Position numbers and translations under genes: made by a program
Shown: positions 54,144-57,520 of the stretch, in pieces
Numbering within the stretch: the first letter of the stretch is position 1
Layout of the letters: each line of letters begins with the position of its first letter
Origin: Sulfuricurvum sp.
GTDB lineage: Bacteria; Campylobacterota; Campylobacteria; Campylobacterales; Sulfurimonadaceae
Direction: 5' to 3'
Assembly: GCF_030691015.1 (NCBI RefSeq)
Contig: NZ_JAUYFF010000001.1
Location: 558,001-622,000, forward strand
Length of the DNA: 64,000 bases
The notes under the pieces: model-generated
What the model saw: only the letters and a program-made list of their open reading frames with translations
Databases searched by the model: none
Told to the model about the DNA's origin: nothing

Positions 54144-54219
54144 GGGCCCTTAGCTCAGCTGGGAGAGCGCGTCGCTGGCAGCGACGAGGTCAGCGGTTCG
54201 ATCCCGCTAGGGTCCACCA
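54144..54219 (+). tRNA. tRNA-Ala (GGC)
   Basis: A 76-base cloverleaf with the CCA end encoded. Acceptor stem GGGCCCT/AGGGTCC (one G-U pair), D arm GCTCAGCTGGGAGAGC, anticodon stem CGTCG/CGACG with loop CTGGCAG (anticodon GGC) and T arm AGCGG-TTCGATC-CCGCT. It reads GCC and GCU codons. It lies at the left edge of the AT-rich island, a common integration site, but I find no repeat of its 3' end at the island's right edge. Confidence 0.97.
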
Positions 54220-54332
54220 ACACCACTTCATCTAACAATCACCTGCACTCATCGTAAAAGCCAAAAAATTATCATCTATTTTCTCTTGCGCTATAATATC
54301 CTCACTTTAACATTGAGGCAAATAAATTGGCA

Positions 54333-54368
54333 TTCTTCAAATCAAATACTACAGTTACATAAAGTATA
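54333..54368 (+). pseudogene. Possible remnant of an interrupted gene
   Basis: A TTG frame of 11 codons (LAFFKSNTTVT) follows a TATAAT at about 54291 and a GAGG site, and stops just before the AT-rich ORF at 54370. It looks like the cut start of a core gene displaced by the island insertion, but it is too short to prove. Confidence 0.25.
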
Positions 54369-54369
54369 A

Positions 54370-55338
54370 ATGAATACTATTAAAACTTTATCTATCTTCA
54401 TTGTTTCTTACCTGTTTGTAATTTATATTAATGAATTCAAAATTGAGGATTTCCCTACATTTGTAGTTTCTTTAATTGCACTTGTAATTTCATTGATCGC
54501 TTTAATTTATACTATTGAAACTTATATGCTTAAATCAGGTATTTATCTTAGAGGTATGTATGGAATTACATTTTTTAATTCTGATAGTCATCAAGCATTT
54601 ATAAATCAGATCACCCTTGAAAATATAAAAGATAAAGCCATTATTATTTTTAATATTTCTATGAAAATTGGTGACAATTATATTTTACTGCTAGAAGATT
54701 TCAAAGATGAGCCATTGATTATAAAGCCATTTGAAATTTACCAAAAAAAATATGAAACCGTCTATTGCTATATATCCAATATGATAAAGTTGGACATACA
54801 AGAATTACTTATTGATCAAGATGTAAAAAAGATTTTTATTCTTTCTACAAATCACGGAAGATATGAAGTTAAAGAAACTGTTAACTTCCATCATCCTTTA
54901 CAAGAATTAAGTTTGAACAGTTGTACGACGCTTGTGCATCCATGTCGATCCGTGTATAAAAGCAAAGTTATTGGAGAAGATGTAAGCTATATTATTGACA
55001 TGGATGATGAGGTTATATTTTTACATAAAGGCGATGAACAACTTCAAATATTTAATAATTTTGATTTGACATCTCATTCATTGACAAGTCGTGATAATTT
55101 AGAAATCTTTTTTGAGCAACAAAAGCAACTAGGAAATATAAAATATAACTTTCTTCAAGTTATCGATGCCGACATTGTTCATAGTGATATCAAGAAAAAA
55201 TATTTTGCTGAAAATAAGGCTAAAGATAACATATCTCTAAGAAAAAGAATACATTGTAAGTATTTGACTCTATTGAATTTATTTAGATCACAAATAGACT
55301 ATATGCTATATAAAATGAAAAAAATTCTGCATATATGA
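54370..55338 (+). CDS. Unknown membrane-anchored protein of the AT-rich island
   Basis: 322 residues, strikingly AT-rich compared with the flanks, with frequent ATA, TTA and AAA codons. Two membrane helices lie at the N-terminus (about 5-20 and 29-50), followed by about 270 mostly cytoplasmic residues with alternating strands (KAIIIFNISMKIGDNYILLL) and helices. I recognise no family. The composition and place beside a toxin-antitoxin pair suggest horizontal origin; a defence role is possible but unsupported by any motif. Confidence 0.6.
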   Translation: MNTIKTLSIFIVSYLFVIYINEFKIEDFPTFVVSLIALVISLIALIYTIETYMLKSGIYLRGMYGITFFNSDSHQAFINQITLENIKDKAIIIFNISMKIGDNYILLLEDFKDEPLIIKPFEIYQKKYETVYCYISNMIKLDIQELLIDQDVKKIFILSTNHGRYEVKETVNFHHPLQELSLNSCTTLVHPCRSVYKSKVIGEDVSYIIDMDDEVIFLHKGDEQLQIFNNFDLTSHSLTSRDNLEIFFEQQKQLGNIKYNFLQVIDADIVHSDIKKKYFAENKAKDNISLRKRIHCKYLTLLNLFRSQIDYMLYKMKKILHI

Positions 55339-55350
55339 TTGGAAAAGAGA

Positions 55351-55476
55351 ATGACAGCTTTAGAACTCCAAAATCATCTTAAAGCCCACTATCCAAAAGA
55401 AAACGAAGCGTGCGAATGGAAAGAGTTTAAAAATCTCAAATCAATAAAGGAAATATTCGTATGGCTAAAGATTTAA
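55351..55476 (+). pseudogene. AlbA_2/Schlafen-type gene remnant
   Basis: A 41-codon frame beginning MTALELQNHLKAHYPKENEA and continuing CEWKEFKNLK. That is how AlbA_2-domain (Schlafen-like, divergent AAA-4) proteins begin; the CEWKExK segment normally opens the nucleic-acid-binding domain of a 400-600 residue protein. Here it ends after about 30 matching residues and runs into the start of the HTH gene, so most of the gene has been lost by deletion. Confidence 0.5.
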
Positions 55477-56480
55477 CCAACTCCAGTTTGGAACGACAAA
55501 ATATCCTCAATAATCCTTATGCTGTACAAGAAATCGAAAAAGCAACCAATCTTCAGGGAGTACGTTTTGAAGATGGTGTGCGTTTCGTAAAAGAACAAGT
55601 AGCTGATTTTTTCGGTATTGATATTCGAACCGTTGAGCGCTATTTAGAAGCGCATGGGGATGAGTTAGAACACAACGGATATGAAGTTCTAAAAGGGGGA
55701 AAACTACAAGCATTTCGTGAAGCGATCAGTGCACAGTTTGTGACCGACATTGATGTCGGTAGCAAAGTACGGAATCTCGGTATATTCGACTTTCGCTCGC
55801 TCTTAAATATTTCCATGTTGCTCACTGAGAGTGAGACGGCCCGTGTATTACGACAAACCATTTTGGATGTTGTGATCGACACCATTAACCAACGTACAGG
55901 CGGCGGGACTAAATATATTAATCAACGTGATGAAGATTTTATCCAAGCCTCTTTCGCAGAAGAAAATTATCGAAAAGAGTTTACCAACGCGCTAAGAGAT
56001 CATGTTGATATGGGAACATTTAAATATCCTCTCTATACAGATAAAATTTACCTATCGATCTTTCGAGAAAATGCTAAGGAATACCGTAAAATCTTAAAAC
56101 TTCACGAAAAAGATAATGTTCGAGATACTTTTTATTCAGAAATTTTGGATCTTATCGCATCATTTGAATTTGGGTTTGCAAAACTTATCGAAGAATCAGC
56201 CAAGCGAAAGGGATCCCAATTAACCTCATATGAAACAGATCATTTGTACAAAGAGTTTGAATCGCAAGCTCACTGGAAACCATTGATTGAACGCGCCCGT
56301 AACAAAATGGCAAGTCGAGATTTAGCGTTTAGAGATGCATTGCATCAACAACTTGAAGAGTATATTACACCTGTGCAGAAAATGGATTTTGAGCGTTTTC
56401 TTGGAGAAAAAAGTAAAGAGCTTGCCGAGAGACTCGAAGAGGCAAAAGATGTCTTTAAACGCCTTAAGGAACGCAAATAA
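55461..56480 (+). CDS. HTH DNA-binding partner (RhuM-like) of a Doc toxin
   Basis: 339 residues. Near residue 45, FVKEQVADFFGIDIRTVERYLE is a helix-turn-helix; the following GYEVLKGGKLQAF and VRNLGIFDFRSLLNISMLL recall RhuM/ANT-type DNA-binding proteins. From about 180 the protein is helical and charged and ends in a coiled coil (ELAERLEEAKDVFKRLKERK). Its stop overlaps the doc start by one base (TAATG), so it is probably the antitoxin and autoregulator. It is far larger than Phd (73 residues), the classical partner of Doc. Function inferred from pairing. Confidence 0.68.
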   Translation: MAKDLTNSSLERQNILNNPYAVQEIEKATNLQGVRFEDGVRFVKEQVADFFGIDIRTVERYLEAHGDELEHNGYEVLKGGKLQAFREAISAQFVTDIDVGSKVRNLGIFDFRSLLNISMLLTESETARVLRQTILDVVIDTINQRTGGGTKYINQRDEDFIQASFAEENYRKEFTNALRDHVDMGTFKYPLYTDKIYLSIFRENAKEYRKILKLHEKDNVRDTFYSEILDLIASFEFGFAKLIEESAKRKGSQLTSYETDHLYKEFESQAHWKPLIERARNKMASRDLAFRDALHQQLEEYITPVQKMDFERFLGEKSKELAERLEEAKDVFKRLKERK

Positions 56481-56914
56481 TGGCATTAATATACCTGACA
56501 TTGGAACAGGCTATAGCAACTCATGCCAAAACGGTAGAAGTAAGTGGTGGCGGAGCAATGGGGCATTTAGATATTGAGCAACTTGGTAGTTGCTTGGATC
56601 ATATCCGAAATGATGTCTATTATCCTACATTTGAAGATAAATTAACCCACATATTTTTTTGCGCTAATAAATTTCACTGTTTTGAAGATGGCAATAAACG
56701 TATTGCTATTTCCGTAGGTGCTCAATTCTTGCTACTTAATGGATATGTGTTTGTAGCCAAACGCTTTATTCATGAAATGGAAAATATCAGTTACCACGTA
56801 GCCGCAGGTAAAATTGAAAAATCCTTACTTCATGAAATCATCACAGCCGTTATCAATGATGACATGAATAATGAATCCATTAAACTCAAAATTTTTATGG
56901 CAATATCAGATTAA
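56480..56914 (+). CDS. Death-on-curing (Doc) family toxin
   Basis: 144 residues. The Fic/Doc motif HCFEDGNKRIA is at 66-76 (H66, N72, K73, R74), followed by FLLLNGY. The N-terminus (YLTLEQAIATHAK) is that of Doc proteins. Classical Doc phosphorylates elongation factor Tu and stops translation. The K in GNKR marks a Doc kinase type rather than an AMP-transferring Fic (GNGR). Partner upstream is the large HTH protein. Confidence 0.85.
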   Translation: MALIYLTLEQAIATHAKTVEVSGGGAMGHLDIEQLGSCLDHIRNDVYYPTFEDKLTHIFFCANKFHCFEDGNKRIAISVGAQFLLLNGYVFVAKRFIHEMENISYHVAAGKIEKSLLHEIITAVINDDMNNESIKLKIFMAISD

Positions 56915-56995
56915 TGCAAGACATTTCTCCCACTTAACCTTTTCGTATTAAACACATACTATAATAGCCCTAACACTTTTCCAAAAGGAACCTTT

Positions 56996-57520
56996 ATGAA
57001 ACTTTCCCTTGCACTTGCCTCATTTGTACTAACCTCTACTTTTGTATTTGCCGCTCCCGCCGCCCTCGCAACCGTCAACGGCAAAGCGATTACTACGAAT
57101 GATGCAAACGCATTTTTGTCCAAAGCTGCACCGGGAATGAGTTTTAATAAACTTGATCCGAAAATGAAACGCCAAGTGGTCGATCAACTTGTAAACCAAA
57201 CGCTTGTAAAAGATCAAGTTATCAAAAGCGGTATTCAAAGCACCCCTGCCTTCAAAGCCCAATATGCTGCGATCAAAAATGATTTGGCAGTCGATATGTG
57301 GATGAAACAGCAAATGAATAAAATCACCGTCACCGACAAAGAGACCAAAGCCTTTTATGATGCTAACGGCGATAAGATGAAACAAGGGGATAAAAAAGTT
57401 CCGTATGAACAAGTAAAAAAAGAGATTACTCAATTTTTAAAACTGGAAAAGTTTAAAGAACATATGAATAAAACAACGGATGCGCTCCGTGCAGGTGCAA
57501 AAGTAGAAATCAAGCTCTAA
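56996..57520 (+). CDS. PEB4/SurA-like periplasmic chaperone lacking the PPIase domain
   Basis: 174 residues. A signal peptide (to about residue 19) is followed by the N-terminal SurA/PEB4 domain (LATVNGKAITTNDANAFL, then DQLVNQTLVKDQVIKSGI). At about residue 124 FYDANGDKMKQ goes directly to YEQVKKEITQFLKLEKFKEHMNKTTDALR, which is the C-terminal helix that in PEB4 comes after the parvulin domain. The roughly 100-residue parvulin domain is thus missing cleanly, leaving a likely pure chaperone for outer-membrane proteins. Seven bases precede tonB. Confidence 0.75.
   Translation: MKLSLALASFVLTSTFVFAAPAALATVNGKAITTNDANAFLSKAAPGMSFNKLDPKMKRQVVDQLVNQTLVKDQVIKSGIQSTPAFKAQYAAIKNDLAVDMWMKQQMNKITVTDKETKAFYDANGDKMKQGDKKVPYEQVKKEITQFLKLEKFKEHMNKTTDALRAGAKVEIKL

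Follow-up and report, generated by a model that had tools for sequence, protein, structure and literature searches.

The Doc protein of P1, encoded together with Phd, is a plasmid-addiction toxin. A lysine replacing a glycine in the motif HxFx(D/N)(A/G)NKR is the reported mark of Doc as an EF-Tu kinase, and a review of the family holds all of its members to be part of Phd-Doc systems (PMC4177925). Other Fic-fold toxins, those of Sofic and FicT-FicA, are AMPylators with a glycine motif, and Sofic has been reported to be anti-phage with a small antitoxin (PMC12249575); in the fused forms of RhuM (PF13310; BifA-type RhuM-Fic fusion), an N-terminal helix-turn-helix (HTH) lies beside a Fic domain (PMC6529018). 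Another toxin pair, DarTG2 of the EPEC RRDM island, is embedded in a type I restriction-modification (R-M) operon and has been reported to be active against phages (PMC12255303). The genes described here belong with PDC-M59, a candidate system of PADLOC-DB 2.0.0 with two members (M59A and M59B), PDC standing for "phage defence candidate" (PMC11514479). The criterion by which it was defined appears to have been its occurrence inside established immune systems (bioRxiv 10.1101/2024.01.29.577857, by Payne and colleagues, cited in PMC12255303), and no paper reporting experiments on it was found in the open-access literature.

We analyzed a 64-kb stretch of DNA from Sulfuricurvum sp. (hereafter the window), which in its 54-kb region contains an AT-rich insert of about 2.7 kb between a tRNA-Ala(GGC) gene and a SurA-like chaperone gene beginning at 56996 (Table 1). 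The coordinates and gene list of an earlier sequence-only reading were found to be correct; the open reading frames are of 322, 339, and 144 aa, with a stub of 41 aa. The insert is present where that reading had placed it, but it is somewhat wider, from 54220 to about 56934, as shown by the empty sites of five same-genus genomes (G017, G004, G011, G024, and G030), in which the gap between the tRNA and the chaperone gene is about 80 bp. The AT-richness claimed for the region was also evident, the gene for the 322-aa protein being the lowest-GC 969-bp stretch of the window (26.2%, versus a window median of 44.2%); the two genes that follow the stub, coding for the 339-aa partner and the 144-aa Doc protein, have GC contents of 38.6 and 34.9%, respectively, and the start of the Doc gene overlaps the stop of the partner gene by one base (TAATG).

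Table 1. Features of the tRNA-Ala insert and its borders (window positions).
Feature	Coordinates	Strand	Basis or remark
tRNA-Ala (GGC), island integration site	54144..54219	+	ARAGORN; borders inserts or empty sites genus-wide
Conserved left arm/leader of integrative element	54220..54326	+	Near-identical to the G029 left arm
Remnant of 12 codons where the type IIG R-M gene would start	54327..54362	+	Alignment to the 5' end of the L130 gene (1038 aa)
Orphan 322-aa protein gene, passenger outside the pair	54370..55338	+	
Truncated AlbA_2 (Schlafen)/HATPase_c_4 gene, 5' end	55339..55476	+	Homology stops at about 55440
PDC-M59A-type partner, 339 aa	55461..56480	+	PADLOC PDLC04717, alignments, model
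PDC-M59B-type Doc protein, 144 aa	56480..56914	+	PADLOC PDLC04718, PF02661, model
Fic/Doc motif HCFEDGNKR, residues 66–74	56675..56701	+	H-x-F-x-D-G-N-K-R in nearly all of 71 homologues
Right junction of insert	56915..56934	.	Matches empty sites from about 56934 on; right end of the element and attR absent

The 339-aa protein matched the PADLOC model PDC-M59A (PDLC04717) with E=1.2e-107 over residues 3–337 of 339, and the product of the adjacent gene, the 144-aa protein, matched PDC-M59B (PDLC04718) with E=1.1e-32. Both matches extend over nearly the full length of the models, the genes lie side by side in the same order as in PDC-M59, and the window copy differs in nothing that defines the system, although it lacks R-M neighbours and is located in a decayed tRNA-Ala element. 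These results indicated that the HTH-Doc pair is an already catalogued candidate anti-phage system and, as far as found, only a candidate. Since both proteins match PDC-M59 A and B, the pair does not constitute the new kind of module distinct from phd-doc that the sequence-only reading had considered; the underlying observation, that Doc is coupled here not to Phd but to an HTH protein of 339 residues, was borne out by the one-base overlap and by the lack of a match to the Phd family.

The 144-aa protein is a Fic/Doc protein: it matched PF02661 above the gathering score (E=4.8e-8) and reached 38.5 bits against TIGR01550 (DOC_P1), just below the cut-off of 38.65. The best Foldseek matches of its model (pLDDT 94.7) were P1 Doc (prob 1.00), on which it superposes at 2.2 Å. 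Its HCFEDGNKR motif fits the Doc consensus HxFx(D/N)(A/G)NKR, with the lysine at position 8, and by analogy of this motif EF-Tu is the predicted target of its phosphorylation. The locus thus resembles P1 Phd-Doc in the fold of the toxin, in the HxFxDGNKR motif with lysine, and in a toxin gene that comes second and overlaps the gene of its partner, and it differs from it in having a 339-aa partner without a Phd/YefM domain, none being detected in the genome either, and in the R-M association of PDC-M59. The same genome codes for two more Fic-domain proteins unrelated to the pair (G000:C17:116572-116856 and G000:C11:15728-16024, in open frames of 334 and 364 aa).

The partner gave no Pfam or NCBIfam match, a family search found no Phd domain in it, and its PHROG match was phrog_2657, "transcriptional regulator" (E=1e-6). 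Its model, of moderate confidence (pLDDT 70, pTM 0.42), shows a winged-HTH region at about residues 34–91, a helical middle part, and a long C-terminal helix at about residues 307–337. In alignments the C-terminal helix is conserved, including a segment around FLGE-S, the invariant motifs include KYINQRD and KMASRDL, and mean column identity is 77% (45 sequences). A Phd-like antitoxin elsewhere, which the sequence-only reading had named as evidence against this pairing, was searched for genome-wide: none was present at the locus and no PF02604 (PhdYefM) match was obtained in the genome. The partner is similar in size to RhuM proteins, but its assignment to RhuM was rejected: it had no PF13310 match (profile-profile probability of 4% over about 50 residues). 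M59 also differs from the fused forms in being split in two genes. With Sofic and FicT-FicA it shares the Fic-fold toxin, these being AMPylators, and the FicTA class I inhibitory motif [ST]xxxE[GN] was found scattered and not conserved among 25 M59A homologues.

PDB sequence searches with the partner profile gave nothing significant. In Foldseek, the sole significant matches of the partner model were structures of Deinococcus DdrC (E=9e-5), and VIA-align gave Z=12.1 over 205 residues at an rmsd of 12 Å, with at most 5.7 for the next entry; with this method Z values below about 13 can occur for helical bundles, and the rmsd implies that only separate parts of the two proteins superpose. In view of the rmsd and the low pTM, the likeness to DdrC is a lead only, and a weak one, to a DdrC-like fold in the partner, possibly as a common arrangement of a winged HTH and a helical part. 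DdrC shows no detectable sequence similarity, not being retrieved by partner sequence profiles even at E 10, it is not itself the partner of a toxin, and the C-terminal region of about 60 residues of M59A lies outside the match. The titles of the DdrC structure entries describe a DNA-damage response, DNA-binding protein, and the R-M genes that adjoin the pair in other genomes would produce broken DNA. The partner might accordingly be a DdrC-like DNA-lesion sensor, whose binding to DNA broken or nicked by restriction or phages would release or activate the Doc kinase, a reading that the structural matches invite but that the rmsd, the pTM, the Z range of helical bundles, and the silence of the sequence profiles make unlikely. 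Its more specific version, in which a DdrC-like sensor would silence the Doc EF-Tu kinase and free it upon abnormal DNA arising from restriction or phage attack, we regard as quite improbable; if true, one portable two-gene unit would tie several restriction types to translational shutdown.

The proposal of an accessory island at tRNA-Ala was supported by the finding that the site next to this tRNA is occupied in some genomes of the genus and empty in others. Besides the five empty sites, other members of the genus have differing inserts at this position, from about 0.4 kb upward. In G032 (locus L130, G032:C31:109500-123600), the distance from the tRNA to the chaperone gene is 13 kb, of which the initial 11 kb correspond to an integrative element (complete at 460-11330 of L130) that contains, in this order, a tyrosine integrase, a type IIG R-M protein (1038 aa, PADLOC E=3.6e-180), two proteins, an AlbA_2/HATPase_c_4 protein (559 aa), and attR, where the tRNA 3' end is repeated. 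The two middle proteins are of 317 and 338 aa, and the 338-aa one opens with VVILGAGAS and is SIR2-like by eye. In G029 (L131), the tRNA is followed by the leader, an intact AlbA_2 gene (552 aa), and attR; past attR, and ahead of the chaperone gene, come two genes for proteins of 537 and 2052 aa and a set of three small genes that are lipoprotein-like. Three other loci (L126, L127, and L128) code for a protein of about 860 aa next to this tRNA, in the opposite orientation, P-type cation-transporting ATPase-like by eye, and no att repeat was found next to it. A second, independent copy of the window element, the closest one to it, with the same gene order and with attR retained, was found in a metagenome-assembled genome labelled Sulfurimonas (L010), in which a pentapeptide-repeat gene stands where the window has the 322-aa gene.

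The leader of the window element has a TATAAT-bearing block in common with both L010 and the type IIG R-M leader of G032. Its promoter-like match consists of TTATCA at 54269 and the TATAAT box at 54292-54297; promoter and terminator scans of the locus gave matches at chance level by count, so that a promoter is argued solely from the conservation of the leader. The short frame that follows it (TTG start, MAFFKSNTTVT, stop) sits where the type IIG R-M gene starts. No second tRNA 3' end was found in the 64-kb window, whereas attR is retained in L010, L130, and L131, and the integrase present in L130 is absent from the window copy; the lack of both here and their presence in relatives indicate that the window copy is a remnant. 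Judging from these comparisons, the insert descends from a tRNA-Ala element that carried R-M and AlbA_2 genes and is a decayed member of a family of such elements whose cargo has been swapped piecewise.

What the sequence-only reading described as a broken AlbA_2 gene is genuinely the 5' end of an AlbA_2/HATPase_c_4 gene, of which two relatives have intact copies. The stub frame is of 41 aa (ATG at 55351, stop at 55476), and at 55339-55440 the first 30 or so AlbA_2 codons are almost letter-identical to the intact genes in an alignment with L130 and L131. Comparison of the window with L010 revealed 55 silent and 4 replacement differences in M59A, 22 silent and 4 replacement differences in M59B, and 0 silent and 3 replacement differences in the AlbA_2 stub, which shows no sign of constraint. 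By these counts, both genes of the pair are under strong purifying selection, while for the stub none is visible. The possibility that the stub functions as a small peptide or as a leader was discarded, as it is unconstrained and was found ahead of the pair in no locus besides the window and L010 (a small count). As for the 322-aa gene, whose protein has two hydrophobic segments at the N-terminus, the idea that it travels with the pair did not hold: among 200 genomes it was seen only in its own. No relatives of the protein were found in the other genomes of this set or among viral contigs, and its sole match elsewhere was a weak and partial one on Acinetobacter plasmids. A third component was therefore rejected, and the 322-aa gene is a passenger that is not part of the pair.

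HTH-Doc pairs recur widely. At least 227 loci in GTDB genomes of many phyla encode the partner, and in 74 of the best 80 of these 227 loci, which have 60–70% identity or more, a Doc open reading frame lies beside it, at an offset of 0 or ±3 bases in 67 of the best 80. The six loci of the best 80 without an adjacent Doc comprise four at contig ends and two damaged ones: L077 (8001-9095), in which a deletion has fused partner and Doc in frame and eliminated the Fic motif, and L015, with a shortened partner and no Doc. Both are broken units of the safe kind. Distances of A and B correlate with each other (r=0.81, 69 loci). The partner is sporadic among 200 relatives of the window genome, and intact close relatives of the Doc protein (>45% identity) occur solely in the six of these genomes in which the partner is present. 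A partner gene in pieces and without Doc was observed in L141 (G105:C70), and at G119:C20:430446-430643 a remnant of Doc is interrupted by a stop codon; both loci are in relatives. The pair is also carried by Streptococcus satellite phages, by an Ilyobacter prophage region, where it comes directly after type III R-M genes, and by IMG/VR contigs. In Streptococcus satellite phage Javan319 (L144, 7245-8249), the partner is labelled "CiaB protein" and the following 150-aa Doc frame is unannotated, and "CiaB protein" is also the annotation of the partner in Javan742 (L146, 10480-11936); contig IMGVR_UViG_2837715220_000001 bears two related M59 pairs near its ends (L172 and L173), each followed by a 1032-aa protein. 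At the level of gene content and sequence, the obligate coupling of A and B and the wide horizontal spread show the PDC-M59 pair to behave as a horizontally moving two-gene unit.

We also determined which genes surround the pair. Its immediate upstream neighbours were type III methylases in 20 of 55 cases and type I specificity subunits (HsdS) in 8 of 55, and its immediate downstream neighbours were type III nucleases in 16 of 42 cases and type I nucleases in 5 of 42. Among 55 control genes taken from the same loci at distances above 5.5 kb, type III genes were not in the top 25 families, and the top count was 2. Embedding in a known defence system is thus found for many homologues, while the window has only R-M and AlbA_2 remnants, its pair standing alone without the R-M genes that accompany PDC-M59 elsewhere. 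Mean identity is 70 and 66% for the two proteins of the pair versus 45% for Mod and Res, and this higher conservation is as would be expected if a portable unit had been inserted into R-M operons. A toxin pair within an R-M operon is also what DarTG2 represents, but with another toxin chemistry and another antitoxin, and PDC-M59 is mostly associated with type III R-M (the window copy with none). Because the unit sits in R-M operons, satellite phages, and prophages, the anti-phage or maintenance role suggested by the sequence-only reading is plausible. Alternatively, the partner might chiefly regulate transcription of the R-M operon around it, with Doc modifying either the partner or a target other than EF-Tu. 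The winged-HTH region and the phrog_2657 match would agree with such a function, and in another case an R-M operon containing a toxin pair is under the control of a repressor, RptR. The unit, however, moves among operons of type III, of type I, and of other kinds, and also occurs where R-M genes are lacking, and in 11 loci in which Mod and Res flank the pair (a small sample; Mod-Res r=0.93) the distances of A track B (r=0.77) above either Mod or Res (0.66), so that we consider this function very unlikely.

With the evidence leaning modestly in its favour, the reading that we prefer is that of a mobile PDC-M59 toxin unit stranded in the remains of a tRNA-Ala(GGC) element, with Doc as an EF-Tu kinase, the partner as a substitute for Phd, and the pair as a backup of restriction. 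The Doc protein would phosphorylate EF-Tu and halt translation in the manner of P1 Doc. Its large partner would replace Phd and bind the toxin, possibly through its conserved C-terminal helix, and would repress or sense by means of its N-terminal winged HTH; that it neutralises the toxin is suggested by the gene order, by the absence of intact Doc genes without the partner, and by the lack of Phd. Infection would disturb the partner, or the R-M complex encoded by the adjoining genes, and the Doc protein so freed would shut down the cell as a second line behind restriction, a release for which the R-M placement and the precedent of DarTG2 (PMC12255303) argue. Toxicity, neutralisation, and phage protection are predicted properties of the pair. 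The main rival is a selfish addiction unit that would kill cells losing the island or the R-M operon, with no direct anti-phage role. Residence on mobile elements and beside easily lost genes, the addiction function of P1 Doc itself, and the state of the window element, decayed around a pair that is intact and under selection, are all as would be expected of such a unit; the preferred location of the pair, flanked by R-M genes or adjacent to them, points to more than carriage, however, and so long and so highly conserved a partner is unusual for an addiction antitoxin, and on this basis we judge pure addiction rather unlikely. Addiction and defence are not mutually exclusive.

In contrast to the view that all Doc family members are part of Phd-Doc systems (PMC4177925), these results describe a widespread Doc family with a different, far larger, and strongly conserved partner. 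What is new here is the reconstruction of the tRNA-Ala element, the quantified embedding in R-M loci with its control, the selection on both genes, and the structural lead for the partner. The locus offers a stepwise picture of a tRNA-gene defence element decaying, with one cargo unit retained under selection, and the placement of the pair in type III and type I restriction operons poses a testable question, namely whether a portable toxin pair backs up restriction.
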